Assembly (NCBI RefSeq): GCF_000807255.1
Contig: NZ_CP009268.1
Location: 3,626,384-3,690,383 of the forward strand
Origin: Clostridium pasteurianum DSM 525 = ATCC 6013
GTDB taxonomy: Bacteria > Bacillota > Clostridia > Clostridiales > Clostridiaceae
Length of the DNA: 64,000 bases
Direction of reading: 5' to 3'
In this document: one piece after another, positions 487-55,414 of the stretch
Layout: every line of letters starts with the position of its first letter
Position numbering within the stretch: the stretch's first letter is position 1
Notes under the pieces: generated by a model
What the model saw: only the letters and a program-made list of their open reading frames with translations
Databases searched by the model: none
What the model was told of the DNA's origin: nothing
Program-made: the position numbers and the translations under genes

Positions 487-556
487 AGCAAAAAACCAGA
501 AAACATAAACAAAGATAATTATCTTTGCTTATGGTCTCTGGTTTTTCCAGTCGACA
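487..556 (-). ncRNA. Antiterminator/terminator leader RNA, copy 1
   Basis: Read on the minus strand: the small hairpin is CTGG-AAAAA-CCAG (reversed relative to the usual CCAG...CTGG, so pairing is kept while sequence is not), flanked by GTC/GAC outer pairing, followed by a stem CATAAGCAAAGAT/ATCTTTGTTTATG and a T run. It lies between the promoter at 592-620 and the SsuC-like permease start at 407. Confidence 0.75.
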
Positions 557-591
557 CATATCATAGTTTACCAGTATGTTAACTTTACTCA

Positions 592-620
592 ATTATAAAT
601 AAGTTTTATCAAATTGTCAA
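592..620 (-). promoter_or_regulatory. Sigma-A-type promoter of the left SsuC-like operon
   Basis: On the minus strand, TTGACA (615-620), a 17-nt spacer and TATAAT (592-597): a perfect consensus. TACTGGTAAACTATGATA lies downstream of -10 and resembles, weakly, the operator found at other leaders. Confidence 0.8.
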
Positions 621-639
621 TAAATATTTGTATAAGAAT

Positions 640-696
640 AATAGCTAAAAAGCCGTTTCACAATAATATATATTGTAAAACGGCTTTTTAGCTATT
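640..696. terminator. Bidirectional intrinsic terminator
   Basis: Near-perfect inverted repeat built on AATAGCTAAAAAGCCGTTT... with a short AT loop. It lies just downstream of the minus-strand dehydrogenase gene (stop at 792) and before the promoter at 592-620, so it insulates the two minus-strand transcripts. Confidence 0.85.
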
Positions 697-791
697 ATAT
701 AAATAAAAAAGTAATTCTGTTTTATTACATAAAAGTTAAATAAATTAATTATTCAAAAAATTACCATTCTTAAGAAAATCTTATGGTATCT

Positions 792-1895
792 TTATACTAT
801 AGCTTTCAACTTTAAACTACTACTTCCTAGTTCATCTACTTTGGTAATTGCTTTTATAATTAGATCCTTATTCACTTGAAAATTTAAATTTTCTAATTCA
901 CTGGAATCGAAATTTACACTATCAGCAATAATCTGTATTTTATCATGGATATTATCTTTTATTCCCAATTGACCCAATGTAACTGGTAATTCTAACTTAT
1001 TAAGTAAATTAATAAGTCTTGCTATTTCCTCTTCACTTTTTCCTTCTAATACAAATTGAACAATCAATCCAAAGATAACTTTTTCACCATGCAAAGTTCC
1101 CTTAGTATCTGGAATATAAGTTAAGCCATTATGAATGGCATGTCCTATAGCCGCCCTATGCTTTCCTCCATTTATACTTCCAACCAATCCTGCTAAAATT
1201 ATAATAGAGTCAACTACATCTTTATATTGACTTTTTACATAGCTTTCTTTATGCTGTACATGTAATTCATCAGCATATTTTTCTAATATATTAAGAGCTA
1301 ATTTTGCTGTTTGAAGACCAATTCTCAAAGATATATCACTATTATCTGATAGATGTGGTGCAGCTTCATACCATTTTACAATGGTATCTCCAATACCTGC
1401 ATTTAAATATCTAGCAGGAGCCTCTGATATTATATTTGTATCTGCTAATATGAGCTTAGGTGATTTTTCCAATAACAAATAATCAATATGTTCGCCCTTA
1501 TCATTATATATTACAGATAAAGCGGACCAAGCTGCACAAGTTGCCGCAATAGTTGGTATTGTTACTACAGGCAAATTTGTCTTTTCACCTATAGCTTTAA
1601 CTAAATCTAATACTTTACCTCCACCAATACCAATGATTATATTTACTCCTAATCTATTAGATAGTTCAGCATATTTATCTATATTAGCAAAAGTACAATA
1701 TCCACTAAATTCTTCAATTTCATATTTGATTTTTTCACTATTTAGGCTTTCAAAAACACCTGGCCCAGCTATCTTTAAAGCTGTTTTACCTCCAATAACC
1801 AAAGTATAATTTCCAAGCTTTGCGATATATTCACCAGCATGCTGTAAAATATTTTCTTCATTAATATAGACTTCTGGTGCCTTAATTTTTATCAT
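792..1895 (-). CDS. Iron-containing alcohol dehydrogenase family (glycerol dehydrogenase/HcxA-like)
   Basis: 367 aa, usual length for the GldA-type branch of group III metal-dependent dehydrogenases. NAD-binding GIGGGKVLD is near residue 90, followed by IPTIAATCA; metal ligands are expected at D in NAGIGD (~169), H in AIGHAIH (~250) and H in GTLHGEK (~268). The ATG overlaps the stop of the upstream aminotransferase (TAATG), so the two genes are translationally coupled and should act together. In E. coli the related ybdH (hydroxycarboxylate dehydrogenase HcxA) neighbours the methionine aminotransferase ybdL. By analogy this pair may interconvert a 2-hydroxy, 2-oxo and amino acid, possibly in sulfur amino acid salvage. 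That role is inference; the family call is firm. Confidence 0.85.
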   Translation of the reverse strand: MIKIKAPEVYINEENILQHAGEYIAKLGNYTLVIGGKTALKIAGPGVFESLNSEKIKYEIEEFSGYCTFANIDKYAELSNRLGVNIIIGIGGGKVLDLVKAIGEKTNLPVVTIPTIAATCAAWSALSVIYNDKGEHIDYLLLEKSPKLILADTNIISEAPARYLNAGIGDTIVKWYEAAPHLSDNSDISLRIGLQTAKLALNILEKYADELHVQHKESYVKSQYKDVVDSIIILAGLVGSINGGKHRAAIGHAIHNGLTYIPDTKGTLHGEKVIFGLIVQFVLEGKSEEEIARLINLLNKLELPVTLGQLGIKDNIHDKIQIIADSVNFDSSELENLNFQVNKDLIIKAITKVDELGSSSLKLKAIV

Positions 1896-3004
1896 TATAT
1901 CACCCTCTCAAAATATTTTAAAGCAACCTTCAATTCCTCAATTAGCAACTTATTCTCTTTAGGTTTACCAATTGTAATTCTAAGCCAAGTTGGCATATTG
2001 TATTCAATACCAGCACGAACAGCAATACCTTTTTGTAGGATTTTATTTGATATTTCAGTACTGTCTTCCTCAACATTAACCATAACGAAATTAGTTTCTG
2101 TTGGTATATATTCAAGACCTATTTCATCAAACTCTTTGTAGAAAAATTCTTTACCTATATTATTGTTTATGACACATGATTCTCTAAAATTTTCATCCTC
2201 TAAACTAGCTATAGCAGCTACTTGTGCTAACCCATTAACATTAATAGGCAATCTTATTTTATTTAATTCTCCAATTAAATTTTCATTTGCAATTCCATAT
2301 CCTATTCTAAGTGCAGCTAACCCATAAACCTTAGAAAAAGTTCTTAAAACTATTATATTATTATACTTATCTACTAATGAAGCAGTCTGAGGATAATCTT
2401 CATGTGTAACAAATTCGTAATAAGCTTCATCCAACACCACTAATATATTTTTAGGTATTGAATCTAAAAAGTTTATTAAAGCTTCTCTACCAAAAATAGT
2501 TCCTGTAGGGTTGTTGGGATTACATAACCATATAATTTTAGTTTTACTATTTATTTTATTCTTTACTTCATTTAAATCGATTGCGTGATTCTTTAACGGA
2601 ATCTCAACAGGGATACCATCCATGGCCAAAGTTACAACCTTATACCACCCAAAAGTTGGTATTGGTATTATAGACTCATCTCCTGGATTAACAAATCCTT
2701 CTGCTACTAAATTAATCAATTCAAAAGATCCATTACCAAAAATCAATTGATTTTCATTAAAATTATAAGTATAAGCTAATTTTTTTCTAAGTTCAGTACA
2801 TTGACCATCTGGATACAGATAGACTCCCTTTAATCCCTCTTCTATTGCCTTTAATGCTAAAGGAGATGGTCCCATAGTATTTTCATTTGCCGAAAGTCTC
2901 AAAATATTGTTAAGTCCAAGTTCCTGCTGTATTTCCTGAAGTGTTTTAGCAGGTGCATAAGATAGTATATTATCCAATGCTTTTCTACAACTAAGTTCTG
3001 ACAT
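1895..3004 (-). CDS. HisC-like (histidinol-phosphate-type) class I/II aminotransferase
   Basis: 369 aa, standard HisC length. PLP-binding features: ANEN near the N terminus, NPNNPTG (~residue 160), DEAYYEF and the Schiff-base lysine in TFSKVYGLAALRIGYG (~225). Ribosome binding site GGAAGG about 11 nt before ATG. It is the first gene of a pair with the downstream dehydrogenase (1-nt overlap) and lies 220 bp after the nitrogenase-like nifK1. No other his genes are visible, so it need not be a histidine enzyme: HisC-like proteins also transaminate aromatic amino acids and methionine. Function beyond aminotransferase is unresolved. Confidence 0.85.
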   Translation of the reverse strand: MSELSCRKALDNILSYAPAKTLQEIQQELGLNNILRLSANENTMGPSPLALKAIEEGLKGVYLYPDGQCTELRKKLAYTYNFNENQLIFGNGSFELINLVAEGFVNPGDESIIPIPTFGWYKVVTLAMDGIPVEIPLKNHAIDLNEVKNKINSKTKIIWLCNPNNPTGTIFGREALINFLDSIPKNILVVLDEAYYEFVTHEDYPQTASLVDKYNNIIVLRTFSKVYGLAALRIGYGIANENLIGELNKIRLPINVNGLAQVAAIASLEDENFRESCVINNNIGKEFFYKEFDEIGLEYIPTETNFVMVNVEEDSTEISNKILQKGIAVRAGIEYNMPTWLRITIGKPKENKLLIEELKVALKYFERVI

Positions 3005-3224
3005 ATAATTACCATTCCTTCCAAAAATAAATATTAAAATTAACTAATAAAATTTATGGTTTTATTACATTCCCAGTGTAATAATCCTATATATTAAACC
3101 CTCTTCATAAATCCCAATACTTTATCAATTTAAATTTTATAAATAATCTATAAATATATAATTCTAAATAAATTTATCTATATATAAATACCAAGTAAAA
3201 GTTTATAGAACTATAATAAAAATT

Positions 3225-4541
3225 TTACTGAAAATCCTGCAATACTGCTGAATAAATATCTTCTGTTAATCTAAGTGCACCTTCATATCCCAGATATGAT
3301 CTGCTAAGTACCATTCTGTCACTGACAGGTGCTGATATAGAAAGCTGATAGCCCTTAACCTCTCTTGAAATTACTCTATCCCAACCACTGCCCAATATAA
3401 GCGGCTTTGTTCTGAATTTAGTATTTCTTAAATAGTTTTTTATATTTCCACTATCACTGGTAAACTGAATATCCCCTATATTAGAACTAGGGTTTTCATT
3501 AAAATATTCTTTTATTTGTTTATGATACTCTTTAGGTACATCGTCTGTAATAAACTGTTTATCACCTAACAACCCCAAATCATTTGTTAAAAATTTAGAA
3601 ATACCTAGTGTATAAGCACTATCTGCTATAGTAATAAAATGCTTTGGCAAAAGTCTGGTTTCAAGTAAAACATCTGCTGCTCTTTCTATATAATAGAAAT
3701 ATCTATCCTCCTGCTTTTTTATCACTTCTTCAACAACATTATCATCAATATGAAGAATTTTTCCTATAGTCCTCAAAAATTTACCTGTTTCTGTTGGTCC
3801 AATAGGAAGTGTTTCATAGTGTAAATAAGGAGTGCCAAACTTCTCTTTAAGGTGAATAACATTCTTAAGTCCTACCCATGGAGATATTAATAGATTATAT
3901 TGAGCTTTTGGCACATCATTAAGGGCCTTTAATCCATTACCTGGTCCAAAAATAATATTGGCTTTAACTCCTATCTGAGATAATAAATCTTTTATTGTTT
4001 CATAATTTCCTGCCCAAAAGGTATCCTGATAAGGTACGGTAGCCCATATATTTATAAGTTTTTCCTCTATTTCATCTGACGGCTCTAAATATTGATCTAT
4101 AATAGCATCCATAATCAGTTCATGTCCTATGAAATTACTTCCTTTAAATCCTCCTGTTTCAGCATATATTATAGATTTCTCCCCATTTTTAAATTCTTTA
4201 ACAATTTCAGGTACATTATCTCCTACAATATCAGAAGTGCAACCAGTTAATACTACGTAAAGCTCTGCATCCATTACTTTAAATGAATTTGAAATAACTT
4301 TACGTAATCGATTGCCTCCTCCAAAAACTACCTCTTTTTCTCCTACATCAGTACAGGGTATTGAATGCCCTCCCATATAACCAGTTCCCTGGCATCCATT
4401 TTGCAGTCCTAAAGTGGACCATATTTTTGCAGCACAGCCTGGTCCGGCATGTATTATTGGAACTGCTTTTTCTATAGCAAGTACCGATTCATATCCCCCA
4501 AGGGTACAAACATGTCTTAATTGTTCAACTACCTCACTCAT
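3225..4541 (-). CDS. Nitrogenase-like component 1 beta subunit (NifK-like), copy 1
   Basis: 438 aa, shorter than true NifK (~520). The three expected P-cluster cysteines are present: C12 (RHVCTLG), C36 (GPGCAAK) and C101 (LTGCTSDIVGDN), plus extra cysteines C50 and C63. It starts in a TAATG overlap with the nifD-like gene upstream, so subunits are made together. It is very similar to the protein at 8655-9971 (shared GYQLSI, SDRMVLS, LTEDIYSVVL-type C terminus). The family includes nitrogenase, dark-operative protochlorophyllide reductase, the F430 enzyme CfbD and methylthio-alkane reductase; with NifB beside it, an iron-sulfur reductase carrying a NifB-derived cofactor is likely. The substrate is unknown. 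Confidence 0.85.
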   Translation of the reverse strand: MSEVVEQLRHVCTLGGYESVLAIEKAVPIIHAGPGCAAKIWSTLGLQNGCQGTGYMGGHSIPCTDVGEKEVVFGGGNRLRKVISNSFKVMDAELYVVLTGCTSDIVGDNVPEIVKEFKNGEKSIIYAETGGFKGSNFIGHELIMDAIIDQYLEPSDEIEEKLINIWATVPYQDTFWAGNYETIKDLLSQIGVKANIIFGPGNGLKALNDVPKAQYNLLISPWVGLKNVIHLKEKFGTPYLHYETLPIGPTETGKFLRTIGKILHIDDNVVEEVIKKQEDRYFYYIERAADVLLETRLLPKHFITIADSAYTLGISKFLTNDLGLLGDKQFITDDVPKEYHKQIKEYFNENPSSNIGDIQFTSDSGNIKNYLRNTKFRTKPLILGSGWDRVISREVKGYQLSISAPVSDRMVLSRSYLGYEGALRLTEDIYSAVLQDFQ

Positions 4542-6010
4542 TATTTCACCTCATCTTCAAGAAATTTAAATGTATCCTGTTGAAACCACCAGGAAGTATA
4601 AGGTAGTTTAACTCTTTTTGATAGACTAAGGGCAAGATTATTGTTTGCTAAAGCATCTATTATCCTGTATCCTAAATCTATTATTCCTCTATAGCCAAAG
4701 GCACTAAATTCATCTGCTACCATTACAGAGGGAATACCCATTTTAGTTGGCCATACAGTAGTACCAGGATGTCTTGATAAGTATAAATCTGGTTTTAATT
4801 TATTAAGCAGATTTAATATTTCAAAATTTTGTTGATCACATACACTTATTGGTGTATCATATTCCTTTTCAGACAATTCAATAGTAGATTCAGGTATACT
4901 ACCATGATCGTACTCCTGATCAAAATGCCAAGAAGCACCCCATATTACTTTAATACCTAATTCTCCAAGTACTCTAATATAATTATGAGAAAAACTTGGG
5001 CCCATGCCTACTACTGCAGTCTTTCCCTTCAGCTTTTCTTTTATTTCTTCTAGTTCAGGTGCTATTTTTTCTTTTTCCTGCTTTATATATTCCTCTATCT
5101 CTTCTACCTTTCCCACGACTTTTCCCAATTCACGAAGCCAATTATCCATACCGGCAATTCCATGGGGCTGCAAAGATCTTATATAAGGGACTCCATACTT
5201 TTGTTCTAATCCATTTCCAAAATAACTGCCAAGAGTACCACATATGCTCATAGTTGCTGCTGACTCAGACATTTTAGATATATCTTCTATAGTTGAAAAA
5301 GGTATTCCAAACTTAGGAACAAGGCCAAAATTTGACAATATTTCTGCTACATAATCACGACCACTACCATTAAAAGTTAACATATTAATGATCTCTGGGT
5401 GCTTTTCTTTTGGTGGTTTTACTATTCTAGTAAGTAAAGCATGAAATGCTGCATCAAAGCCAGAGGCCCATATCTTTGATCTGAATCCTTCACAAAAAAC
5501 TGGTACTACCGGTATATTTATCTGTGCTTCTATTTCATCTGCGACACTTTTTACATCATCACCAATAATAGCTGACGCACAAGAAGTAGTTATAAAGATA
5601 GCTTTAGGACTAAATCTCCTATAAGCTTCCCATATTGCATCCCTTAATTTTTTCAGTCCGCCAAAAACAGTAGTTTCCTCTGTCATATTAGTATTAATGA
5701 CATTCACATTTCTCTTTTCAAGATCTCGTATATTTTGACCCCAAAGAAAATTAGTATTTTCTCCAATAACATCTGCTGAACATCCCTTAGCTCCATGATT
5801 TACAATAGCTGAATCCATTATACGTGCTAAGTATCCTTGCGCACATCCAGAACTGCAGTTAGTAGCCTGACTAAAACATCTTTCTTTATTTTTAAGGCAT
5901 CCTGTTTTAGCCTTCTTTACAAGATCCTTTATAGTTCCCGTATATCCAGTAATTGATCCAAGCCTACCTTCTCTAGTAACAGCTTCTATTCTCTTAATAT
6001 TTATAGTCAT
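4541..6010 (-). CDS. Nitrogenase-like component 1 alpha subunit (NifD-like), copy 1
   Basis: 489 aa. P-cluster-type cysteines are C56 (CSSGCAQG), C77 (GAKGCSAD) and C144 (TTSCASAIIGDD). The cofactor-ligand cysteine of NifD (C275 in Azotobacter) corresponds to C257 (MSICGTLGSYFGN). The homocitrate-side ligand H442 has no equivalent: after KMGIPS the aligned position appears to be Ala. Additional cysteines C38, C45 and C52 precede the first motif and are shared with copy 2. The gene follows nifB by 46 bp and overlaps nifK1, giving nifB-nifD-nifK. Not a true dinitrogenase by these features; a reductase using a NifB-type cluster is inferred. Confidence 0.87.
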   Translation of the reverse strand: MTINIKRIEAVTREGRLGSITGYTGTIKDLVKKAKTGCLKNKERCFSQATNCSSGCAQGYLARIMDSAIVNHGAKGCSADVIGENTNFLWGQNIRDLEKRNVNVINTNMTEETTVFGGLKKLRDAIWEAYRRFSPKAIFITTSCASAIIGDDVKSVADEIEAQINIPVVPVFCEGFRSKIWASGFDAAFHALLTRIVKPPKEKHPEIINMLTFNGSGRDYVAEILSNFGLVPKFGIPFSTIEDISKMSESAATMSICGTLGSYFGNGLEQKYGVPYIRSLQPHGIAGMDNWLRELGKVVGKVEEIEEYIKQEKEKIAPELEEIKEKLKGKTAVVGMGPSFSHNYIRVLGELGIKVIWGASWHFDQEYDHGSIPESTIELSEKEYDTPISVCDQQNFEILNLLNKLKPDLYLSRHPGTTVWPTKMGIPSVMVADEFSAFGYRGIIDLGYRIIDALANNNLALSLSKRVKLPYTSWWFQQDTFKFLEDEVK

Positions 6011-6055
6011 AAACTCTCATCCCTTTATACACAAAATCATTTAAATTCTAACCCA

Positions 6056-6946
6056 TTAACCATGTGAAAAAGTTTCAAGTTTTTCATTTATAACTCCGTA
6101 AAGTTTTAAGGAAAGATCTTCTTTACCTGGTATTCCACATGCATCTGCACGGCAATGTTTGCAATGTCTAAATACTCCAAGGTATTTTTCAGCAGTTACT
6201 CTTGCTTTATCTAACTGTTCACAAGTAGGTGCTGGAATATGACTTAAATCGTGTTGTGGTATTAAAGGTATAATATTATATAAAGTAGCTCCTGCTTCTT
6301 TCACAGTTTTCGCTATCTCCTCTATATGTTCATCATTAACAGTTGGAATAAGCACAGAGTTTACCTTTACTACTACACCTAAACTGCTTATTTTAGCAAT
6401 TCCCTTAAGTTGGGCTTTTATAAGTATGTCTGCAGCCTCTTCCCCATGATATATCTTGCCATCTAATACTATATGAGATATAATCTGACTTTGAATCTTT
6501 GGATCAACTCCATTTACAGTTACTGTTATAGTTCTCACTCCAGCATCGTAAATATCCTGAGCATAACGTTCAAGTAACAATCCATTTGTACTTAAGCATT
6601 TAACAAGGTCAGGATAAGCTTTGTCCACAAGTTTAAAGGTTTCAATTGCCTGTGGTGTTGCCAAAGTGTCTCCTGGTCCAGCTATACCTACTACTGTTAT
6701 TTGAGGGCAAAGTTCCAATGCTCTTCTAATAGTATCTACAGCATCTTTAGGATCTAATATTCCATTGGCAACTCCCGGTCTCTCTTCATTACTATTGCAA
6801 TCTCTTTTGCAAAATTTGCATTGTATATTGCAGGCTGGACTTACTGGAAGATGAATTCTTCCAAAATTATGATGAGCTTCTCCTCCTAAGCAAGGATGTA
6901 TTTTGGAAAGATGGGAAAATCCTGAATCTTTATTTGGTTTTAACAT
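6056..6946 (-). CDS. nifB: NifB-like radical SAM cofactor maturase
   Basis: 296 aa if started at the ATG at 6946 (MLKPNKD), which has TAGGAGGG 7-8 nt upstream; the frame is open further upstream only because it runs through the leader terminator. It has the NifB-specific N-terminal HPC (SKIHPCLGGEAHHNFGRIHL), the radical SAM triad CNIQCKFC and the C-terminal CKHCRADACGIPG. NifB makes the carbide-containing Fe8S9C precursor of nitrogenase cofactors using SAM. There is no C-terminal NifX domain. First gene of nifB-nifD-nifK with its own promoter (7128-7156) and leader (7016-7085). Its presence argues that the linked NifDK-like proteins hold a NifB-derived cluster. Confidence 0.93.
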   Translation of the reverse strand: MLKPNKDSGFSHLSKIHPCLGGEAHHNFGRIHLPVSPACNIQCKFCKRDCNSNEERPGVANGILDPKDAVDTIRRALELCPQITVVGIAGPGDTLATPQAIETFKLVDKAYPDLVKCLSTNGLLLERYAQDIYDAGVRTITVTVNGVDPKIQSQIISHIVLDGKIYHGEEAADILIKAQLKGIAKISSLGVVVKVNSVLIPTVNDEHIEEIAKTVKEAGATLYNIIPLIPQHDLSHIPAPTCEQLDKARVTAEKYLGVFRHCKHCRADACGIPGKEDLSLKLYGVINEKLETFSHG

Positions 6947-7015
6947 AAAATTCCCTCCTAATAGTTTTAATATAAATTTTTTCAATTTTATTGAATGCAC
7001 AAATTTCTTTGGAAT

Positions 7016-7085
7016 CAAAAATAGACTAAGCCCCATCTAATAACGTTATAGATAGAACTTAGTCTCCAGTTTTTCTGGTAAACTA
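7016..7085 (-). ncRNA. Antiterminator/terminator leader RNA upstream of nifB, copy 2
   Basis: Minus strand: AGTT-TA-CCAG-AAAAA-CTGG-A-GACT, then the terminator stem GACTAAG...CTTAGTC with TATTTTT. The GACT that closes the small hairpin against AGTT is also the base of the terminator stem, so only one can form. It precedes the nifB start at 6946. Confidence 0.8.
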
Positions 7086-7127
7086 AAATCACTAATTCCA
7101 AGCATTCATATTTGTTTTATTGAAATT

Positions 7128-14556: not shown

Positions 14557-14626
14557 AAAATAAAGAGACCAAGTTTTCTCAAATTAAATTTTAGAAAACC
14601 CAGTCTCCAGTTATTCTGGTCAACTT
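14557..14626 (-). ncRNA. Antiterminator/terminator leader RNA upstream of ssuCB-cysK, copy 3
   Basis: Minus strand: AGTT-GA-CCAG-AATAA-CTGG-A-GACT, then terminator GACTGGGTTTTCT...AGAAAACTTGGTC with a short T-rich tail. AGTT/GACT replaces the GGTT/GACC seen elsewhere, a compensatory change. Confidence 0.8.
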
Positions 14627-14637
14627 TGTATTAATAT

Positions 14638-17889: not shown

Positions 17890-17966
17890 TAAATAAAAAG
17901 GCTGGCCGTTTTATGAAAAATAAATCTTTCATAAACAAGTCAACCTCCAGTATTTCTGGTTAGCAC
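17890..17966 (-). ncRNA. Antiterminator/terminator leader RNA upstream of the ChW protein, copy 4
   Basis: Minus strand: GCT-AA-CCAG-AAATA-CTGG-A-GGT, then stem GGTTGACTTG-TTTATGAAA / TTTCATAAAACGGCCAGCC and TTTTT. The outer pairing is three bases here. Confidence 0.75.
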
Positions 17967-18023
17967 AACTCTTTTACAATAAAAGAGAAAACAATATTAT
18001 ACCTATTTGATTAATGTGATTTA

Positions 18024-18320: not shown

Positions 18321-18372
18321 CTTACAAAAGGCACATTAAAAATATAGAAATAGCATGCACTTGTTTTTATTT

Positions 18373-18431
18373 GAACTGACCAGAAAACTGGAGGTTAGGA
18401 TTATCTTAATTGATTATCCTAGCCTTTTTTG
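18373..18431 (+). ncRNA. Antiterminator/terminator leader RNA, copy 5
   Basis: Plus strand: AACT-GA-CCAG-AAAA-CTGG-A-GGTT, then GGTTAGGATTATC...GATTATCCTAGCC with TTTTTT. The outer pairing AACT/GGTT is a full compensatory change relative to GGTT/GACC, strong support for the helix. Confidence 0.82.
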
Positions 18432-18474
18432 CATATAGAATATTTCACAATAATCATACAGGGAGATGATCATA

Positions 18475-21643: not shown

Positions 21644-21710
21644 ATAAAAAATAGAGACCAAGTTCTTTCAATTTAAGAAAAAACTTGGCCTCTAGTATTT
21701 CTAGTCAACC
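21644..21710 (-). ncRNA. Antiterminator/terminator leader RNA upstream of ssuA-like copy 1, copy 6
   Basis: Minus strand: GGTT-GA-CTAG-AAATA-CTAG-A-GGCC, then stem GGCCAAGTTTTTTCTT / AAGAACTTGGTCTC with a T-rich tail. CTAG/CTAG replaces CCAG/CTGG. Confidence 0.8.
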
Positions 21711-21723
21711 AAAATTTATTTTA

Positions 21724-22939: not shown

Positions 22940-22984
22940 AAATTAACCCCTCCTAATTTTTATGTATTCATATTATTTAAAATA

Positions 22985-23047
22985 TTAAAGAGACCAAAAC
23001 TTTTCAAATTTATGAAAAGTTTTGGTCTCCAGCATATCTAGTTAACC
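22985..23047 (-). ncRNA. Antiterminator/terminator leader RNA inside the ssuA-like array, copy 7
   Basis: Minus strand: GGTT-AA-CTAG-ATATG-CTGG-A-GACC, then a long perfect stem GACCAAAACTTTTCA / TGAAAAGTTTTGGTC. No promoter is evident between it and the upstream stop codon at 23057. Confidence 0.78.
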
Positions 23048-23056
23048 TAAAACTAT

Positions 23057-24127: not shown

Positions 24128-24173
24128 AAATTGATTCCTCCTAATTTTTATGTATTCATATTATTTAAAATAT

Positions 24174-24236
24174 TAAAAGAGACCAAAACTTTTCTTAATC
24201 TTGAAAAGCTTTGGTCTCCAGTATATCCAGTGAACC
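24174..24236 (-). ncRNA. Antiterminator/terminator leader RNA upstream of ssuA-like copy 3, copy 8
   Basis: Minus strand: GGTT-CA-CTGG-ATATA-CTGG-A-GACC, then stem GACCAAAGCTTTTCAAG / CTTGAAAAGTTTTGGTC-like arms and T-rich tail. The inner hairpin can pair only through G-T wobbles, so it may be degenerate. Confidence 0.7.
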
Positions 24237-24277
24237 TAAAACTATTTATTTATAATATACGTCTGTTTACTATATAG
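24237..24277 (-). pseudogene. 3'-end relic of a fourth ssuA-like copy
   Basis: The ~40 bp directly upstream of leader copy 8 match the end of copy 3 and its junction with the next leader (CCTAAAACTATTTATTTATAATA followed by a diverged TCTGTTTAC). On the minus strand they still encode TD-YYK-stop. This is what deletion between tandem copies would leave. Confidence 0.65.
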
Positions 24278-24349
24278 AATAATAAATTTTGTACAAAATA
24301 TTTTTATTGCTAATAGAACCGAAATATATTTATTAGCAAAATAAATTTT

Positions 24350-24411
24350 ATAAAAAAAGCTAAGTTTTTTAAATTAATAAAGAACTTAGCCTCCAGTATT
24401 TCTGGTCACCT
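24350..24411 (-). ncRNA. Antiterminator/terminator leader RNA, promoter-proximal in the ssuA-like array, copy 9
   Basis: Minus strand: GGTGA-CCAG-AAATA-CTGG-A-GGCT, then GGCTAAGTTCTTTA / TTTAAAAAACTTAGC and TTTTTTT. The outer pairing is the weakest of the set. Confidence 0.75.
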
Positions 24412-24421
24412 AAAATTTATT

Positions 24422-27977: not shown

Positions 27978-28033
27978 TTTTAAAGTATTTAAAGTTTATT
28001 TAATAAAATTAAAGTATAATATTTTAATATAGA

Positions 28034-28098
28034 TTTAAAAAGGCTAAGCATATAATAAATGTTAAAATATACTTAACCTCCAGTTTTTATGGCAAACT
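28034..28098 (-). ncRNA. Antiterminator/terminator leader RNA between cysK2 and copA, copy 10
   Basis: Minus strand: AGTT-TG-CCAT-AAAAA-CTGG-A-GGTT, then GGTTAAGTATAT / ATATGCTTAGCC with TTTTT. Only 30 bp separate it from the cysK2 stop (28129), so it acts within the cysK2-copA transcript. Confidence 0.72.
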
Positions 28099-28128
28099 TA
28101 TTAATCTTAAGAATAATGTATTAATATA

Positions 28129-31299: not shown

Positions 31300-31346
31300 T
31301 ATTAAGACTCCATTCAAATATCAAAATTCCATTTAGTTTTAAATAT

Positions 31347-31406
31347 AACAAAAGGCTAAATAACCCTCCATAATAGGTATTCAGCCTCCAGATTTCTGGT
31401 CAACTA
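31347..31406 (-). ncRNA. Antiterminator/terminator leader RNA upstream of the two-component system, copy 11
   Basis: Minus strand: AGTT-GA-CCAG-AAAT-CTGG-A-GGCT, then GGCTGAATACC... / ...GGTTATTTAGCC with TTTTG. Loop of four rather than five. Confidence 0.78.
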
Positions 31407-31430
31407 ATAATAATTTTCGCAAGTATTGCA

Positions 31431-36828: not shown

Positions 36829-36892
36829 ATGTTCCCCCTATAAAAATTCATAATTACTAATTATCGAACTGTTCAAAACTATTAACATTTTA

Positions 36893-36963
36893 TAAAAAAA
36901 GACTATGTCTACCCTATCTTCTGAAATAGCAGTAAACATAGTCTCTAGTTTTTCTAGTCAACT
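36893..36963 (-). ncRNA. Antiterminator/terminator leader RNA upstream of nifDK3, copy 12
   Basis: Minus strand: AGTT-GA-CTAG-AAAAA-CTAG-A-GACT, then GACTATGTTTAC / GTAGACATAGTC and TTTTTTT. Both helices are fully paired. Confidence 0.82.
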
Positions 36964-36986
36964 ATTTGCAATATTAGTTTAAAATT

Positions 36987-46588: not shown

Positions 46589-47776
46589 CTATATAAAAAT
46601 TGCTTCAACTGCTTTCTCATAGCCGCCTGATTCCTTAAAAGAATCACTTATCTTTTTAATATTTTCAACATAATTTGAATCTGTTAAAACTTTTCCAATA
46701 GAAGTTTTTAAAATTTCTGCAGTAAGTTTGTCCTTATCAAGAGAAATAGCTGCGCCAAGTTCCGATGCCCTTTTTGCCATATAGGGCTGATCTCCTCCTA
46801 TAGGTATTGCCACAAATGGCACATTATTATACAGTAAATCACTAATACTATTCATTCCTGCATGTGTTACCGCCACATCTGCATATTTTAAAATTTGTGA
46901 TTGAGGAACATAATTTTTAACTATGAAATTTTCAGGTATGTTAAACTTGGAAATATCTATATTGTATGCAGTCATAACTACTACAGCATCACTATCTTTA
47001 AAACTTTCAAAGAATATATCATAAAGATTAATATGCATATTGTTAAATACAGTTCCCAGGGAAATGTATATAACTTTCTTCCCCTGCAGCCTTTCAAAGG
47101 GAAAATCTAAATTCTCTTTTCTATCATATATTGGCGGACCTATGAATTTAAAACTATCATCATAATACTCAATATGTGAAACAAAATACTTAGAAGTATA
47201 TGCAATATTTGTATCACCTTTATTAAAGAACAATTCACTTATATCATCAGATAATTCTACATTATAAGTTTTCTTTAAATTTCCAGAGACTTCTTTATGC
47301 GTTTGAATAATTGGATGATCTTTTATCAAATCTTCAATGGAATAGATCTTACCCATCATACGTTCCTTTGGAGTAACAAACACTGCAAAAGAAGAAATAG
47401 ATGGAATATCTAATATTTTAGCAATAACATTTCCTATAGGTATTATAGAATCATAAACTATGTAATCAAATTTTATATCTTTAGTTTGATACAAAATATC
47501 ATCTATAATCTCAATACTACAATTAAGAATTTTATTTACAAAATTCATCAATTTATTGATGCCAGTTTCCTTGCCCTTATTATGCTGCATTTTTAAAGGA
47601 TTTAATTCTCCTTTGTAAGTTTTAAATACTGCACCTGACTTTTCAATTTTTTCTCTAAATTCTTCTGAAGAAAAATATATAACTTCATTTTCTTGATTTA
47701 CCAATTCATTTACCAATCCCAATGTTGGATTAACATGACCATAGGCTGAAATATTCAAAAAAAGTATCTTTGACAT
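46589..47776 (-). CDS. MGT/UGT-family (GT1) glycosyltransferase
   Basis: 395 aa. N-terminal acceptor half begins KILFLNISAYGHVNPTLGLV; the C-terminal nucleotide-sugar half contains NYVPQSQILKYADVAVTHAGMNSISDLLYNNVPFVAIPIGGDQP, the GT1 signature with the HAGxNS and GGDQP elements. Related enzymes glycosylate macrolides, sterols or diacylglycerol. AAGGACG precedes ATG. Although unrelated to sulfur by family, it has a full promoter, operator and leader of the recurrent type (47861-48026). Acceptor unknown. Confidence 0.85.
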   Translation of the reverse strand: MSKILFLNISAYGHVNPTLGLVNELVNQENEVIYFSSEEFREKIEKSGAVFKTYKGELNPLKMQHNKGKETGINKLMNFVNKILNCSIEIIDDILYQTKDIKFDYIVYDSIIPIGNVIAKILDIPSISSFAVFVTPKERMMGKIYSIEDLIKDHPIIQTHKEVSGNLKKTYNVELSDDISELFFNKGDTNIAYTSKYFVSHIEYYDDSFKFIGPPIYDRKENLDFPFERLQGKKVIYISLGTVFNNMHINLYDIFFESFKDSDAVVVMTAYNIDISKFNIPENFIVKNYVPQSQILKYADVAVTHAGMNSISDLLYNNVPFVAIPIGGDQPYMAKRASELGAAISLDKDKLTAEILKTSIGKVLTDSNYVENIKKISDSFKESGGYEKAVEAIFI

Positions 47777-47860
47777 AAGTTCACGTCCTTTTTCTCATCT
47801 TTTCTAATTAAATTCTATAATCTTATGAAACTCAAATATTATATTCAAATTTAAAACACA

Positions 47861-47929
47861 TAAAAAGACCAATTATTCTTAAACTTAAACTCTTTTAAGA
47901 AAAATTGGTCTCTAGTGCTCTAGTCAACC
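47861..47929 (-). ncRNA. Antiterminator/terminator leader RNA upstream of the glycosyltransferase, copy 13
   Basis: Minus strand: GGTT-GA-CTAG-AGCA-CTAG-A-GACC, then GACCAATTTTTCTTAAAAG / CTTAAGAATAATTGGTC and TTTTT. The loop differs (AGCA), all helices pair. Confidence 0.8.
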
Positions 47930-47967
47930 ATAATATTAAAGTTTGATTTCGAAGTTTTAATTATACA

Positions 47968-49717: not shown

Positions 49718-49828
49718 ATAAATATATTAAAATGATAATAAGACTAAAGATATAAAAAATGAATCAGCATACTGATAGCTATTTCTTTTAAAACACTTAT
49801 AGAAAATATTAAACAAAATTGTAATTAT

Positions 49829-49894
49829 GGTTGACTAGAAATACTAGAGGCTAATTTTTTCTCAAAACAATTTGAGAAAAAATTAGCCTTTTTA
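49829..49894 (+). ncRNA. Antiterminator/terminator leader RNA upstream of the NapH/FMN-binding gene, copy 14
   Basis: GGTT-GA-CTAG-AAATA-CTAG-A-GGCT, then GGCTAATTTTTTCTCAAA / TTTGAGAAAAAATTAGCC and TTTTT, a perfect 18-bp terminator stem. Confidence 0.82.
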
Positions 49895-49988
49895 TATTAT
49901 GTAAATAAATTAGAAATTAATATTTACAAATTTTATAAATATTTAATATAACCTATATTTAAAAATTATTCTAAAAGGAGTTGTAAAC

Positions 49989-51164
49989 ATGTCAAAAAAA
50001 ATAAAGGAAATACAAATCTTCAGGCATATCATACAGATAATCTTATTTTTTCTTTTACCCGGTGTATACATATTGGCCTTTAGTGAATTAAAATCTATTT
50101 TCCAGATGATCATCAGAGGAAATTTTAATTTTATTCAATCTCTTCCTGGTTTAATAGAATTTACAGTAGCAATTATTTTTACTATTTTAATGGGTAGATT
50201 TTTCTGTGGATGGTTTTGTGCTTTTGGCAGCTTTAATGATTGGATACATATAGCTTCAAAAAAAATATTAAAAACTGATTTTAAAATTAGTGAAAAACTT
50301 GATTCTATACTCAAATATATAAAATATGGAATATTAGCTTTAATTCTAATTTTTATACTTACTGGTAAAAATGACATTCTAAACGGCACAAGTCCTTGGG
50401 ATGCTTTTGCGCAGATAACTAATTTCTCCACTGTAATATCTACTATAACTATTGGCTTTATATTTTTAATTTTGATACTTATAGGAAATATTTTTATTGA
50501 AAGATTTTTTTGCAGATATTTGTGTCCTTTAGGTGCTGTGTTTTCTTTAATCTCTAAAATAAGTATATTAAAAATAAGCAAACCAACTGAGAAATGTGGT
50601 AATTGTAGAATATGTACAAATAATTGTTCAATGGGATTAAAACTTTATAGTATAGATAACATCCGTGGAGGAGAATGTATAAATTGCTTAAGATGTGTAG
50701 AAACCTGTCATAGGGAAAATCCACATGTAAATATAATTAATACAGAAGTTAATTCAGCAACAGCCAGTTCTTTTGTTGTAGCTATTTTTGCAGGTATATA
50801 TGGCATAACTAATTTTGGAAATTCAATCTCAATTCAGAAAGGCTTAGCTTCTTCCAATGCAGTAATATCCAGTACTGTTTCACAAGGAATTAAATATAAG
50901 GATGGAGATTACCCAGGAACTGGTATAGGCTTTAATGGCGGTACAACAAAAGTTTCTGTTACTATAAAAAATAGTAAAATTAATGCTATCAAAACAATAT
51001 CAACTGAAGATACTCCAGACTTTTATAAAAATGTGGAAAATATTATTCCAAATAAAATAATTTCAACTCAATCAACAAGTTCAGTTGATACTGTATCTGG
51101 AGCAACTTATAGCAGTAAAGGCATTATTGATGCAACTCAAAATGCATTGAATAAAGCCAAATAA
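49989..51164 (+). CDS. NapH/NosR-like membrane ferredoxin with C-terminal FMN-binding domain
   Basis: 391 aa. Five membrane segments with CGWFCAFG and CRYLCPLG, a dicluster ferredoxin (CGNCRICTNNCSMG ~197-210; CINCLRCVETCHREN ~229-243), a further membrane or signal-like segment (~258-275) and an FMN_bind domain (~295-391) ending VDTVSGATYSSKGI. The SGAT Thr/Ser is the site flavinylated by ApbE in this family. Such proteins move electrons across the membrane to extracytosolic flavins. AAGGAG before ATG. Leader-controlled; terminator at 51176-51222. Confidence 0.85.
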   Translation: MSKKIKEIQIFRHIIQIILFFLLPGVYILAFSELKSIFQMIIRGNFNFIQSLPGLIEFTVAIIFTILMGRFFCGWFCAFGSFNDWIHIASKKILKTDFKISEKLDSILKYIKYGILALILIFILTGKNDILNGTSPWDAFAQITNFSTVISTITIGFIFLILILIGNIFIERFFCRYLCPLGAVFSLISKISILKISKPTEKCGNCRICTNNCSMGLKLYSIDNIRGGECINCLRCVETCHRENPHVNIINTEVNSATASSFVVAIFAGIYGITNFGNSISIQKGLASSNAVISSTVSQGIKYKDGDYPGTGIGFNGGTTKVSVTIKNSKINAIKTISTEDTPDFYKNVENIIPNKIISTQSTSSVDTVSGATYSSKGIIDATQNALNKAK

Positions 51165-51222: not shown

Positions 51223-51250
51223 CACATAAATTATTTAGTAATATCCAATA

Positions 51251-51805: not shown

Positions 51806-53782
51806 TTAAACTCTATCAATAGCTTTTAAATGAACATCTTTATCTACTTTCTTTGCAAAAGTCAACTTTTTATCATTATGTGTTATTACCCTGCCAATAC
51901 TTGAATAATCATAGCCTCCAAGCCTATCCAGTTCTTTTAAGAATATATTGCTTTTCATAATATCAATTAACTCTTTAATAGTCTCCATTTCCAAATATTC
52001 TTCAGGCACTGCAAAATCGTATTCTTCATTGCACACTGGAATAAAATCAAGACCCATAATCTCTGCTGCTGAATATACTCCAAGACCGCAGTCTACATCT
52101 CCACTGGCTACTGCTGCAGCTACAGACAGATGAGTAAATTCCTCTCTTTCATATCCGTTAATATCTTTTGGAGAAATATTTAATTTTTTCAAATAATAAT
52201 CTAATAACAGCCTTGTGCCTGCTCCTCTTTGTCTATTTACAAAACGTACACCTTTTTTGTATATGTCTGAGATTTCTTTAAGGCACAATGGATTTCCCTT
52301 TTGAACCATAAGCCCTTGGATTCTATTTACTACCTTTATTAAGGCTATATTTTTACCTTTTAAGTATTTATTAATGTAAAAAATATTATATTTTCCACTT
52401 TCCATATCCAATAGATGAATTGGAGCGATATGGGTTTCTCCATTTTTCAGTGCCATTATACCTCCCATACTTCCAGTATGAGCAGATGATAAGTAATAAT
52501 CAGGATTTTTTACATGAATCAGATCGGAAAGTATGTCCAATATAGGATCATGGCTTCCTATACAAACAATAGTATTTTTAATTTCATCTATATTTTTCAT
52601 AAGGCTTATTTGTACCTTGCTTCCAGCCTCAATCCCCTCTACATTTTGTGGAATTTCCAATATTCCATCTGCTCTTACAAGAGACATGGTAGACCCTGCC
52701 CCTCTTGAAAGTGGGGTAGCAATGAATTTATTTCCCACATATCCAAGCTTCATTCTCACAAATTCCAAATACTTTAAGGAAGACATAACTCTTCTCGATA
52801 GAGTAGCCTCTAGCCTTTGTACTTTTTCAGTTTTCTTTCCCTGATATCCTTCTATAATTACTTTGAGAATCTTATCCATTATAAAATAAGCGGAAACTGG
52901 ATATCCAGGAATTCCAAGAACCGGCTTGTTTTCAACTTCTCCCAGGACAACTGGTTTACCTGGCTTTATAGATACACCGTGTATATAAACTTCTCCTAAA
53001 TCCGAAATCACATCGCTGGTATAGTCCTCCCTACCTGCAGAAGAACCCGCATTTATTATCACTATATCACATTCTGAAACAGCCTTTTTTAAGATACTTT
53101 TTAAAATATCATAATTATCCTTAACTATCCCATATCGTTTTGGTATCCCGCCGTATTGAGTAACTTGAGCACTAAATACTCTTGAATTAAAGTCAATTAT
53201 ATCTCCTATTTTAAGATTGCTGCCCGGATCTACAAGTTCAGTGCCGGTTGGAATAACACCTATTAAAGGCTTTTTATACACTTCAACGGTATTTACTCCT
53301 CCTGCTAACATTGCTCCTATATCCACCGGTCTTATCATATGCCCAGAGGGTACAATAAGTTGATTTTCAACTATATCTTCACCTAATGGCCTTATATGCT
53401 GCCAGGGTGCTGCACTTTTATATATTTTAACTTTATCTCCATCTATTTTAACTGTATCCTCAACCATTATTACACAATCATATTCTCTTGGAATTGGATC
53501 ACCTGTATCTACAACTAAATAATCCTTGCCTTCTTCTAGTGTAATAGGCCTCTTTTCAGAAGCACCTATAGTTTTTAAGCTTTGGACAGCAATACCATCC
53601 ATAGCAGAACAATTATAGAAGGGAGAAGATATTTTTGAATAAACTGCTTCTGAAGTAACCCTTCCTAAGGCTTCTTCTGTATTTAGCAATTCCTTATTTA
53701 AAAATGAATGTTTTATTCTTCCCAAATATTCACTGAGAGCTTCTTTTAATTCATAATTTGACAAATATACTTTTTGCACCAT
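51806..53782 (-). CDS. MoeA-like protein fused to a C-terminal periplasmic-binding-protein-like domain
   Basis: 658 aa from ATG at 53782, 8 nt after AGAGG. Residues ~1-405 are MoeA (GDPIPREYDCVIMVEDT, IINAGSSAGREDYTSD, SIKPGKPVVLGEV, GIPGYPVSAYF); residues ~410-640 are the PBP-like domain seen in LysR/ModE-type substrate sensors (CIGSHDPILDILSD, RQRGAGTRLLLDYYL). MoeA inserts Mo or W into the cofactor. The fused domain may bind molybdate or tungstate. It follows the first moeA directly (its stop overlaps the ribosome site), so the two are co-translated. Confidence 0.88.
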   Translation of the reverse strand: MVQKVYLSNYELKEALSEYLGRIKHSFLNKELLNTEEALGRVTSEAVYSKISSPFYNCSAMDGIAVQSLKTIGASEKRPITLEEGKDYLVVDTGDPIPREYDCVIMVEDTVKIDGDKVKIYKSAAPWQHIRPLGEDIVENQLIVPSGHMIRPVDIGAMLAGGVNTVEVYKKPLIGVIPTGTELVDPGSNLKIGDIIDFNSRVFSAQVTQYGGIPKRYGIVKDNYDILKSILKKAVSECDIVIINAGSSAGREDYTSDVISDLGEVYIHGVSIKPGKPVVLGEVENKPVLGIPGYPVSAYFIMDKILKVIIEGYQGKKTEKVQRLEATLSRRVMSSLKYLEFVRMKLGYVGNKFIATPLSRGAGSTMSLVRADGILEIPQNVEGIEAGSKVQISLMKNIDEIKNTIVCIGSHDPILDILSDLIHVKNPDYYLSSAHTGSMGGIMALKNGETHIAPIHLLDMESGKYNIFYINKYLKGKNIALIKVVNRIQGLMVQKGNPLCLKEISDIYKKGVRFVNRQRGAGTRLLLDYYLKKLNISPKDINGYEREEFTHLSVAAAVASGDVDCGLGVYSAAEIMGLDFIPVCNEEYDFAVPEEYLEMETIKELIDIMKSNIFLKELDRLGGYDYSSIGRVITHNDKKLTFAKKVDKDVHLKAIDRV

Positions 53783-53787
53783 AATGA

Positions 53788-55020
53788 TCACCTCTGAAAT
53801 TTATAAACATATACTTTTTCATGTTCATAAACTCCTTCCACATTTTTATTGATTTTTATGTAACCCCATGCTTTTGTAAATCCACTGATAGCTGCAGATT
53901 TACTCAAAACAGGTGCAGCTATATATTCTCCATTCACATTGTTAATAGTAACTGGAAGATATTCTTCTCTTCCCTTAGCTTTATGATAATTCATGTTGAA
54001 TTTACAGGGAATAGGATAATCCACATCCTCAAATCCCATCATTGCATTAATAATGTATCTAACTAGTATTCTATAAACCACAGCACAGGAAAGTGGATGC
54101 CCTGGAAGACCAAAGATAGGCTTATCTTTTATCTTCCCAAGTATAGTTGGCTTACCTGGCTTTATAGATATTCCATGAAAAAGTATTCCATGAGCTCCAA
54201 GTTCATCAATAACCTTTGCAGTTTCATCTTTTTTCCCTACAGAACTGCCTCCAGATACTAGCACTAAATCACATTCATTTACAGCTCTTTTAACAGTTTC
54301 AAATAATTCTTCATAATTATCTTTAATGATCCCATATAGTATAGGTTGTCCACCATCTTCAATAACCGAAGAATAAATAAGATAAGAGTTAATATCTCTA
54401 ATTTCACCAAGCTGCGGCTGTTTTTCAGGAGATACAATTTCATCTCCTGTAGAAATTATTCCAATCCTCGGTTTACAAAATACTTGTACTTTAGTGATTC
54501 CTAAGCTGGATAGCATACTTATGCCGTAAGGTTTCAGTATTGTTCCCTGTTTCAGCACAGTTTCTCCAAATTCCACATCTTCATCTTCATTCAATACATT
54601 TTCTCCAAAGGAAATAGACTTATTGGCAAGTACAGTAGCATCATCCATTTTATCTATGTATTCTATCATAATCACACTATCAGTACCCTCAGGAAGCATT
54701 CCTCCAGTTGGTATATACATACATTCACCTGGATACTCTAGTGATTTAACTGGCATTTTCCCCATTTTAACTTCTCCTTTTAAATCAAGCAAGGAAGGCA
54801 TACTTTCACTAGCACCCTGAAGATCTCTAAACTTAACAGCATATCCATCCACCATAGATCTTTTAAATCCAGGAATGTTTAAAGGTGATGTAATATCCTT
54901 GGATAACACTCTGCCATTGCACTCTTTAATATCTATCAATTCTGTTTTTAAAATTAACTTAAAGTTACAGTTTATAATATTCTTTGCCTCTTCTACAGAT
55001 ACTACATTATAAAAATTCAT
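53788..55020 (-). CDS. moeA: Molybdopterin molybdenumtransferase
   Basis: 410 aa, standard MoeA length with all domains: [18 protein letters not shown] near the N terminus, [45 protein letters not shown] and [13 protein letters not shown]. Uses adenylylated molybdopterin and molybdate (or tungstate) to finish the cofactor used by the dms enzyme at the right end. Two MoeA proteins, as here, often coexist in organisms using both Mo and W. Leader (55041-55106) and operator-bearing promoter upstream. Confidence 0.93.
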
Positions 55021-55040
55021 ACTAAGCCCCCTATAATATA

Positions 55041-55106
55041 AACAAGAGACTAATTTTTCTGAAATAAGCTTAAGAAAAATTAGTCTCTAGTGTCTTCTAG
55101 TCAACT
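55041..55106 (-). ncRNA. Antiterminator/terminator leader RNA upstream of moeA, copy 15
   Basis: Minus strand: AGTT-GA-CTAG-AAGACA-CTAG-A-GACT, then GACTAATTTTTCTTAAG / TTCAGAAAAATTAGTC with a poorer T tail (TCTCTTGTTTA). Six-base loop. Confidence 0.78.
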
Positions 55107-55152
55107 AAATAATTATTATGATTCCAATTTAGAATTTAATAGCAATATAACA

Positions 55153-55210
55153 TATTATTCTTATGTGTTTAGTAAGATATATATTATCACCATTTTTTAT
55201 ATTATGTCAA
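55153..55210 (-). promoter_or_regulatory. Promoter with Rrf2-type candidate operator, moeA
   Basis: TTGACA (55205-55210), 16-17 nt spacer, GATAAT/ATAATA (55182-55188), then CTTACTAAACACATAAGAATAA. Divergent from the tatA promoter 80 bp away. Confidence 0.62.
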
Positions 55211-55289
55211 TATGTTTTAAATAAATTTTGTAAATTTGTAATTAAATAAAATAATTTTTAGATAAATACCAGTTTTGTTTATAATCATA

Positions 55290-55318
55290 TTGACATAAAG
55301 GGAAAAAATAAGGATAAT
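55290..55318 (+). promoter_or_regulatory. Promoter of the tat operon
   Basis: TTGACA (55290-55295), 17-nt spacer, GATAAT (55313-55318). Confidence 0.75.
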
Positions 55319-55348
55319 ATAAATATATTAAACAAATAAAAATATTAT

Positions 55349-55414
55349 GGTTGACTAGAAAAACTAGAGGCTAATTTTTTCTTAAAAATATTTAAGAAAA
55401 AATTAGCCTTTTAT
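55349..55414 (+). ncRNA. Antiterminator/terminator leader RNA upstream of the tat operon, copy 16
   Basis: GGTT-GA-CTAG-AAAAA-CTAG-A-GGCT, then GGCTAATTTTTTCTTAAA / TTTAAGAAAAAATTAGCC and TTTTATTTTATT. Almost the same as copy 14. Confidence 0.82.

Follow-up and report, generated by a model that had tools for sequence, protein, structure and literature searches.

The RAT sites of the BglG, LicT and SacY proteins are short RNA hairpins whose 3' side overlaps a terminator and which are stabilised by a protein. The bglG and licT genes lie next to their own sites. A hairpin element whose 3' side likewise overlaps a terminator recurs in the window analysed here, a stretch of 64,000 nucleotides from Clostridium pasteurianum DSM 525 (contig NZ_CP009268.1, positions 3,626,384 to 3,690,383), and yezD, the gene of its candidate reader, a small protein of the family DUF2292, in many genomes also lies beside the element. 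The element differs from RAT in its 24 bases with one GA/A bulge, in its connection with sulfur and not sugars, and in its number, about 50 sites and not a few. The RAT sequence, which has two internal loops, was not matched: the aligned copies have one asymmetric GA/A bulge.

The second related system combines ANTAR proteins with the sponge RNA EutX/Rli55. According to PMC5821096, EutX is transcribed from a constitutive promoter and has a terminator under the control of a sensor and a binding site without terminator. As there, antiterminator leaders are accompanied here by a predicted sponge transcript that has a sensor-controlled terminator and terminator-less sites. The sensor described there is a B12 riboswitch, whereas here it would be an open reading frame (ORF) with runs of cysteine codons, and the sites, up to 10 in number, are single hairpins not associated with ANTAR. 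The CsrB and RsmZ decoys of CsrA likewise contain many protein-binding hairpins in one RNA, but the sites in the present arrays match antiterminator leaders and follow a cysteine-rich ORF and a terminator. Short cysteine-encoding ORFs of mycobacteria reportedly act as cysteine-responsive attenuators (Canestrari et al. 2020); their output is an operon, whereas here it is apparently a decoy RNA (in one locus, L178, yezD itself). SAM riboswitches (S-box) and T-boxes, which work by a terminator/antiterminator logic, lie upstream of yezD in the same bacteria; they are large aptamers that Rfam finds near yezD, and the element is unmatched by them. By its kind the system would belong with protein-dependent antitermination (RAT, ANTAR) and sponge RNAs (EutX/Rli55), the RNA families that were tried being excluded.

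The element is probably the RNA site of a protein-dependent antitermination system of sulfur assimilation that is read by YezD and, in some genomes, is accompanied by a decoy set by cysteine. The two-helix hairpin is present at all 16 places where the original prediction had put hairpin leaders (both strands read), 13 on the minus strand and three on the plus strand. The start coordinates given earlier pointed to the right places; for the minus-strand copies they mark the terminator side and not the hairpin. The hairpin has a 4 bp outer helix, an asymmetric GA/A bulge and a 4 bp inner helix, 24 bases altogether, with the RNA consensus R-G-Y-U-GA-CYRG-(A-rich loop, mostly 4-5)-CYRG-A-GRCY and strong sequence conservation around the bulge and the loop. 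Standard pairs fill 96.9% of the 128 pair cells of the window copies, against only 28-56% when the 3' partner is slid by 1-3 columns as a control, and five of the eight pairs change on both sides, in keeping with the compensatory changes claimed for both helices. The genome contains 11 exact occurrences of the pattern GACYAGN5CTRGAGRC and none of the reversed control pattern. The motif with flanking GA and A holds in general; five copies depart from GA (TA at 7061, AA at 17942 and 23024, CA at 24213, TG at 28075) and four have one failed pair each (inner at 28075, outer at 24388, outermost at 533 and 17942).

The outer 3' arm, which is the last 4 bases of the hairpin, is shared with the 5' arm of an intrinsic terminator in 15 of the 16 window copies, and the mutual exclusion of outer helix and terminator stands to this extent. 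Terminators were called by a fixed rule (stem score 18 or higher, five or more T among the 8 bases that follow, stem start 5-8 bases before the hairpin end); the 16th copy (17942-17967) has a weaker one, and the rule finds terminators at 38 of 2000 random window positions. The median folding energy in the window is about -5.5 kcal/mol for the hairpin and about -18 kcal/mol for the terminator region. The hairpin therefore should need outside help. A riboswitch to which a sulfur metabolite binds directly, with no protein involved, would suit the conservation around bulge and loop and the sulfur gene context, but it is very improbable. Such a 24-base hairpin would have to beat the terminators by itself, the loop is variable in length and letters, the presence of the element follows a protein gene, and multi-copy arrays make sense as protein decoys.

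The alignment of 138 matches from many genomes comprises 122 distinct sequences, in which 96.8% of 975 pair cells are paired, 157 cells carry double changes compared with 31.6 in shuffles and seven of the eight pairs covary; because it was fitted to the model it leans toward structure, and kin sequences also inflate the covariation counts. The 45 distinct matches from yezD loci, mostly from different species, contain 73 double-change cells compared with 18.0 in shuffles; two other covariation measures fall within the shuffle range for these matches (48 and 231 of 500). The innermost outer pair (columns 6 and 29) is U-G in 109 of the 122 sequences. This pair makes no DNA palindrome, and the signal is therefore RNA. 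A DNA operator for a transcription factor, with the hairpin as its inverted repeat, was considered, the inner arms being palindromic in cases such as CTAG/CTAG. It was rejected as scarcely credible on the conserved U-G pair and the same-strand terminators; in addition, the arm spacing varies and the better promoters lie 21-78 bases upstream. Together, anatomy and covariation strongly support a predicted antitermination logic. Rfam has no match in the window at gathering score, none at the element in seven loci at E≤1 and none there in 42 further loci at gathering score, in line with the earlier view that the sequence is unlike known families. No report of the element was found in a full-text literature search, whose reach excluded most subscription journals.

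The genome is a single 4.35 Mb contig (labelled G000) and was searched with two covariance models, R1, built from the 16 window copies, and the broader R2. R1 gives at least 49 matches at E≤1 and at least 44 at E<0.002 (150 of 3321 candidates scored), and R2 gives 55 at E≤0.1. The leader is thus recurrent, as had been proposed, with 16 copies as the share of the window only. The 49 copies make the window the densest part of a genome-wide regulon, and further matches lie in Clostridia and Bacilli. An overlapping terminator accompanies 37 of the 49 own-genome matches, to be compared with the random control given above. Upstream of 27 of the 49 copies there is a sigma-A-like promoter that outscores 95% of random sequence from the window. 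The -10 of these promoters ends 21-78 bases before the hairpin, and nine of the 27 are exactly TTGACA-17-TATAAT. The original prediction did not foresee the scale of about 50 copies, the connection with YezD/DUF2292 or the decoy arrays.

The search for a co-occurring regulator yielded DUF2292/YezD as the candidate. Among 58 relatives, the element (R1, E≤0.01) is found in 12 and Pfam DUF2292 (PF10055) in 12, and 10 are shared. Given as both / element only / DUF2292 only / neither, the counts for 393 Clostridia genomes are 28/8/9/348 at E≤0.001 (element scored on 19 candidates per genome) and 29/21/8/335 at E≤0.01, a threshold at which the E-value predicts about four chance genomes; by genus they are 16/6/8/190 at E≤0.001. 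The element is present in 25 of the 28 Clostridia genomes with a strong DUF2292 match (E<1e-8). The independent set, 121 genomes of a Bacilli family (that of a Sporosarcina), gives 51/1/6/63. Seventeen of 19 genomes behind yezD loci have the element at E≤0.01; 10 of the 19 lack it inside the yezD locus at E≤1 (R1), and eight of these carry one elsewhere.

Several single genomes bear on these counts. In G034 the element is present though the genome-wide R1 search did not list it. Weak DUF2292 genes (E 1.3e-4 to 1.6e-5) lie 31-151 bases before a same-strand element in G081, G100 and G242 (loci L173-L175), which suggests that the family is wider than the Pfam model. Among the Clostridia with only the element at E≤0.001, G056 and G263 miss the terminator rule, and G236 and G306 look like chance. 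The element of G025 is probably false, its matches lying in dispersed repeats rich in CTAGAGACT. One weak element match (E 2.4e-5) was found in G455, a metagenome-assembled genome labelled as a spirochaete.

The one ANTAR protein of this genome is encoded about 2.2 kb downstream of an element copy (G000:C1:3232555), and an ANTAR-domain antiterminator could in principle read the hairpins. This was rejected as most improbable on two grounds: no ANTAR match was found in G003, which has 49 copies, or in G005, and in the 58 relatives ANTAR, present in 36, is not associated with the element (9/3/27/19, p 0.24). The element is moreover a single hairpin, its bulge (GA/A) asymmetric and its loop mostly 4-5 bases long, whereas the ANTAR target is a hairpin pair with six-base loops.

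The linkage of element and yezD was examined in a scan of 84,980 genomes with a YezD alignment; 131 places were confirmed, and the best 80 of them form the set used here. The R2 element (E≤0.01) occurs in 40 of these best 80 loci, and 47 of its 51 matches are on the yezD strand. In 19 of the 80, two of them near-identical, the element overlaps the yezD stop or lies at most 500 bases after it, and in four Bacillus-type loci it starts 2-5 positions after the stop codon. Within the Bacilli family, 49 of the 122 listed elements are within 12 kb of a same-strand DUF2292 gene, and five pairs are on opposite strands. An overlapping terminator was found in 24 of 31 examined matches, out of 53 in yezD loci. 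Co-occurrence and linkage together support YezD as the putative reader of the hairpin.

The yezD gene is itself often preceded by sulfur-related leaders. A SAM riboswitch or T-box lies within 450 bases upstream of yezD on the same strand in 14 of 46 scanned loci. In L178 (4270-6087, minus strand) one apparent operon contains, in order, a poly-cysteine ORF, a terminator, a tRNA-Cys gene, yezD, the element, a terminator and metK. Because yezD stands behind a SAM riboswitch, T-box or poly-cysteine leader, the level of YezD should often report sulfur status. As a separate observation, G323 has two SAM-riboswitch-like leaders (by eye), each directly before an element and terminator, as sulfur switches in series (L193:1880-2600, plus strand); a short MNKIYLFSYSMYCCK ORF follows the first of them.

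The YezD of C. pasteurianum scores 65.8 bits against the DUF2292 gathering score of 22. By the start calls, its orthologues in the best 80 loci are 38-69 residues long, mostly 47-61. In the 80 aligned proteins G35, E53 and K54 (numbering of the C. pasteurianum protein) are invariant and T38, Q42, D43, Q48, E50 and R56 nearly so. The AlphaFold2 model is a helix and a beta-hairpin (mean pLDDT 77.6, pTM 0.50). As far as searches of the literature show, DUF2292 is not known to bind RNA, and YezD is unmentioned in PMC10418091 and PMC2965389; among the listed papers that contain the name, none is by its title visibly devoted to the protein. OscA of Pseudomonas is a DUF2292 protein needed for the use of organosulfur compounds. 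According to PMC2996968, OscA is a small protein of unknown function encoded in a sulfate-transporter cluster; its transcription unit is overexpressed after chromate, and its inactivation leads to susceptibility to Cr(VI). These data fit a positive (activator) role of DUF2292, without proving it.

Runs of hairpins without terminators were found in four genomes: 10 hairpins in G000, five in G003, five by pattern in G338 and two by pattern or three by model in G323. In G000 (G000:C1:845.4-846.2 kb, locus L033) a 93-codon ORF with cysteine runs (CCCTCC, CCCCC) is followed by the 10 hairpins, eight of which are in a 42-base tandem repeat. Each of the four arrays lies 3' of a small cysteine-cluster ORF and an intrinsic terminator; the terminator stems look alike, and the only terminator found by the rule lies before the hairpin run. 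The four array promoters are consensus-like, and transcription of the arrays is predicted from them; regulator sites without terminators would then lie in one transcript in all four genomes, as in decoys of the EutX and CsrB type. In all four, the stop codon of the cysteine ORF is beyond or next to the start of the terminator 5' arm. A ribosome that reaches the end should for this reason mask the terminator, and decoy synthesis would occur at high cysteine; the reverse polarity could also apply. Inspection by eye only, for a sequence that might act as antiterminator against the decoy terminator, gave no consistent result.

Small ORFs with a ribosome site and at least four cysteines in eight residues are rare. 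Only six occur in 907 kb of fetched loci, which were chosen for elements and overlap to some extent: four are at the arrays, one is the yezD leader of L178 and one is inside a methionine-rich gene. A second, shorter case in G338 consists of a CCC ORF and two hairpins, with no terminator by the rule. When the G000 array is folded by itself, its stability exceeds that of its shuffles (z -4.4); in the minimum-energy fold most copies, though not all, keep the inner helix, and few keep the full hairpin. From their anatomy, the arrays behind poly-cysteine ORFs are likely a cysteine-sensing decoy.

Proteins of about 154-177 residues that are very rich in methionine and cysteine are encoded near the decoy arrays (L033:5462-5992, plus strand; L086:2882-3346 and 3485-3949, plus strand; L192, reverse complement, 410-886; L186, about 2700-2370, minus strand). 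The methionine-rich gene directly follows the array in G003 and G323; the similar stretch of G338 has a broken reading frame. The G000 gene is found 1.8 kb past the array, beyond an IS110-type transposase gene, and its protein has no Pfam match. These proteins are possible sulfur stores or metal binders.

The proposed mechanism has two layers. The leader transcript would first fold the small two-helix hairpin; otherwise the stronger terminator, whose 5' arm includes the outer 3' arm of the hairpin, would form. When sulfur is short, YezD would bind and stabilise the hairpin, the terminator would be blocked and the genes behind it would be read. The gene of YezD would itself often be controlled by SAM riboswitches or T-boxes or, once, by a cysteine-rich leader ORF. 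In the second layer, proposed for this genome and three others, a strong promoter would drive a poly-cysteine ORF that ends at or next to a terminator. When cysteine is plentiful, the ribosome would reach the end of the ORF and mask the terminator, and the terminator-less hairpin array would be transcribed. The array RNA would then titrate YezD, and the regulon would be shut.

YezD could instead be a co-regulated target. The antiterminator would then be read by some other protein, and YezD, though often encoded within the regulon, would serve another purpose, for instance in sulfur metabolism itself. This is consistent with the position of yezD inside sulfur operons, preceded or followed by sulfur-responsive RNA, and with a fusion in G033, a genome with no element by R1, in which DUF2292 (26 bits against 22) is the C-terminal end of an EF-Tu-like GTPase, CysN by eye (L082, ORF 5582-6979). 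It also agrees with the absence of a recognised RNA-binding fold in the YezD model. The explanation is nevertheless unlikely. The targets differ by lineage, Nif-like and ssu genes in Clostridia and cysH and others in Bacilli, but in both classes the presence of DUF2292 goes with that of the element (the profiling covered DUF2292 and ANTAR). Few genomes have the element without DUF2292 at E≤0.001, one of 52 in the Bacilli family and eight of 36 in Clostridia. Even in G036 three tandem 50-codon ORFs follow a weak element (L072:4724-5288), and two of them are weak DUF2292 matches (E 1.5e-4, with 21.7 bits against 22, and E 0.017).

Besides the possibility that YezD is a target, several results weigh against antitermination by YezD with a cysteine-set decoy. 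A terminator by the rule is absent in 12 of the 49 own-genome matches, four of which are in the array, and 22 of the 49 copies have no promoter above the 95th percentile of the control. The Fisher tests ignore phylogeny, and the count by genus is the sole correction for kinship. DUF2292 was not found in 21 of the 50 Clostridia genomes with the element (E≤0.01), and two that have the element without it at E≤0.001, G127 and G389, possess an overlapping terminator and look genuine. Conversely, the element was undetected in nine of 37 Clostridia genomes and six of 57 genomes of the Bacilli set that have DUF2292. The only proteobacterial DUF2292 locus reached (L189, a Novosphingobium plasmid, 61.6 bits) has no model match at E≤1, so that a reach beyond Firmicutes is unsupported except for the weak match in G455. 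A Foldseek search of the YezD model against the PDB gave no match at E≤0.001, and a separate search for solved relatives found none (best E 0.25); RNA binding by YezD is thus without structural support. Finally, one terminator-less tandem pair (G000:C1:3478197/3478239) has no cysteine-cluster ORF in its locus.

The common denominator of the genes led by the element appears from gene context in two bacterial classes to be sulfur assimilation. The original prediction had named a sulfur/molybdenum/redox regulon; the sulfur part is retained, and no separate molybdenum or redox signal was seen, no dedicated test having been made. Genes of the molybdenum cofactor (Moco), Tat and MOSC type may belong to the regulon. 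The nifB and nifDK genes placed behind leaders are indeed Nif-like, with scores below the nitrogenase and NifB cut-offs. The NifDK-like proteins, which have relatives known as methylthio-alkane reductase, score far below, and the NifB-like protein somewhat below its own cut-off. The NifDK-like genes sit among cysK, O-acetylhomoserine sulfhydrylase and sulfonate-type transporter genes, and a nitrogenase-like enzyme is reported in sulfonate assimilation (PMC11423573). NCBIfam was used to name nine genes that follow elements or yezD elsewhere than in this genome. Those above the cut-off are cysH (two), adenylyl-sulfate kinase, uroporphyrinogen-III methyltransferase, O-acetylhomoserine sulfhydrylase, NifH and metK; a NifD/E-like and a NifB-like gene are below it. 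In Bacilli the element stands before cysH and before the genes of adenylylsulfate kinase and uroporphyrinogen-III methyltransferase. The annotated order on a Cytobacillus spongiae plasmid is yezD, element, phosphoadenylyl-sulfate reductase, a transporter annotated as phosphate permease, sat, cysC, nitrite/sulfite reductase, DUF3906 and cobA.

The window copies and the genes behind them are as follows, on the minus strand unless a plus strand is given, with the terminator named second in brackets. Copy 1 (533..558, inner CTGG/CCAG; 489..540, overlapping the outer 3' arm) leads a gene, SsuC-like by eye only, whose start is near 410 and which extends past the edge of the window. Copy 2 (7061..7086; 7015..7065) precedes the NifB-like gene 6056-7036, copy 3 (14602..14627; 14557..14607) an SsuC/SaoP-like permease gene (13627-14445) and copy 4 (17942..17967; a weak terminator below the rule threshold, 17891..17946) the gene of a ChW-repeat/Big_3 protein (15611-17860). 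Copy 5 (18372..18396; 18391..18434; both plus) lies before an ORF with no NCBIfam match (18466-19014) and a NapH-like gene (19278-20186). Three SsuA-like proteins are encoded behind copies 6, 7 and 8: a substrate-binding protein (20539-21609) behind copy 6 (21687..21712; 21644..21694), a second (21869-22939) behind copy 7 (23024..23049; 22981..23030) and a third (23057-24127) behind copy 8 (24213..24238; 24170..24219). Copy 9 (24388..24413; 24349..24392) is upstream of copy 8 on the same strand, which makes two leaders in series.

Copy 10 (28075..28100; 28033..28079) precedes the gene of a CopA-like P-type ATPase (25560-27977), and copy 11 (31383..31407; 31343..31389) the genes of a response regulator (30595-31317) and a histidine kinase (29180-30574). 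The NifDK-like pair (35359-36828 and 34037-35362) follows copy 12 (36940..36965; 36890..36946), and a macrolide-family glycosyltransferase gene (46589-47776) follows copy 13 (47907..47931; 47856..47913). Copy 14 (49827..49852; 49846..49899; both plus) is before a NapH-like gene (49989-51164), copy 15 (55082..55108; 55037..55088) before MoeA-like genes (53788-55020 and 51806-53791) and copy 16 (55347..55372; 55366..55419; both plus) before a TatB/A-like gene (55521-55832). An IS91-family transposase gene (56589-57827) separates the TatA/B-like gene from the TatC gene. Upstream of copies 3, 6 and 9 there is a shared word like TAAACAnnTnGGAATnAT (14628-14675, 21713-21760 and 24414-24461, minus strand). 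It is possibly the site of a second, DNA-level sulfur regulator of the CymR kind.

The most general reading of these results is put forward only tentatively: DUF2292 (YezD, and OscA by kinship) would be a new family of RNA-binding antiterminators that govern sulfur assimilation in both Bacilli and Clostridia; in some clostridia the amount of a multi-site decoy RNA that titrates the protein would be set by a cysteine-codon attenuator. If this is true, a function would be assigned to DUF2292, which Pfam lists as uncharacterised and which OscA connects with sulfur supply and chromate resistance. In two bacterial classes a sulfur regulon would then be controlled during transcription elongation. 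The known controls would gain a decoy RNA that titrates a protein and is itself set by cysteine attenuation, and translation through cysteine codons would be converted into the activity of a global regulator at the RNA level.

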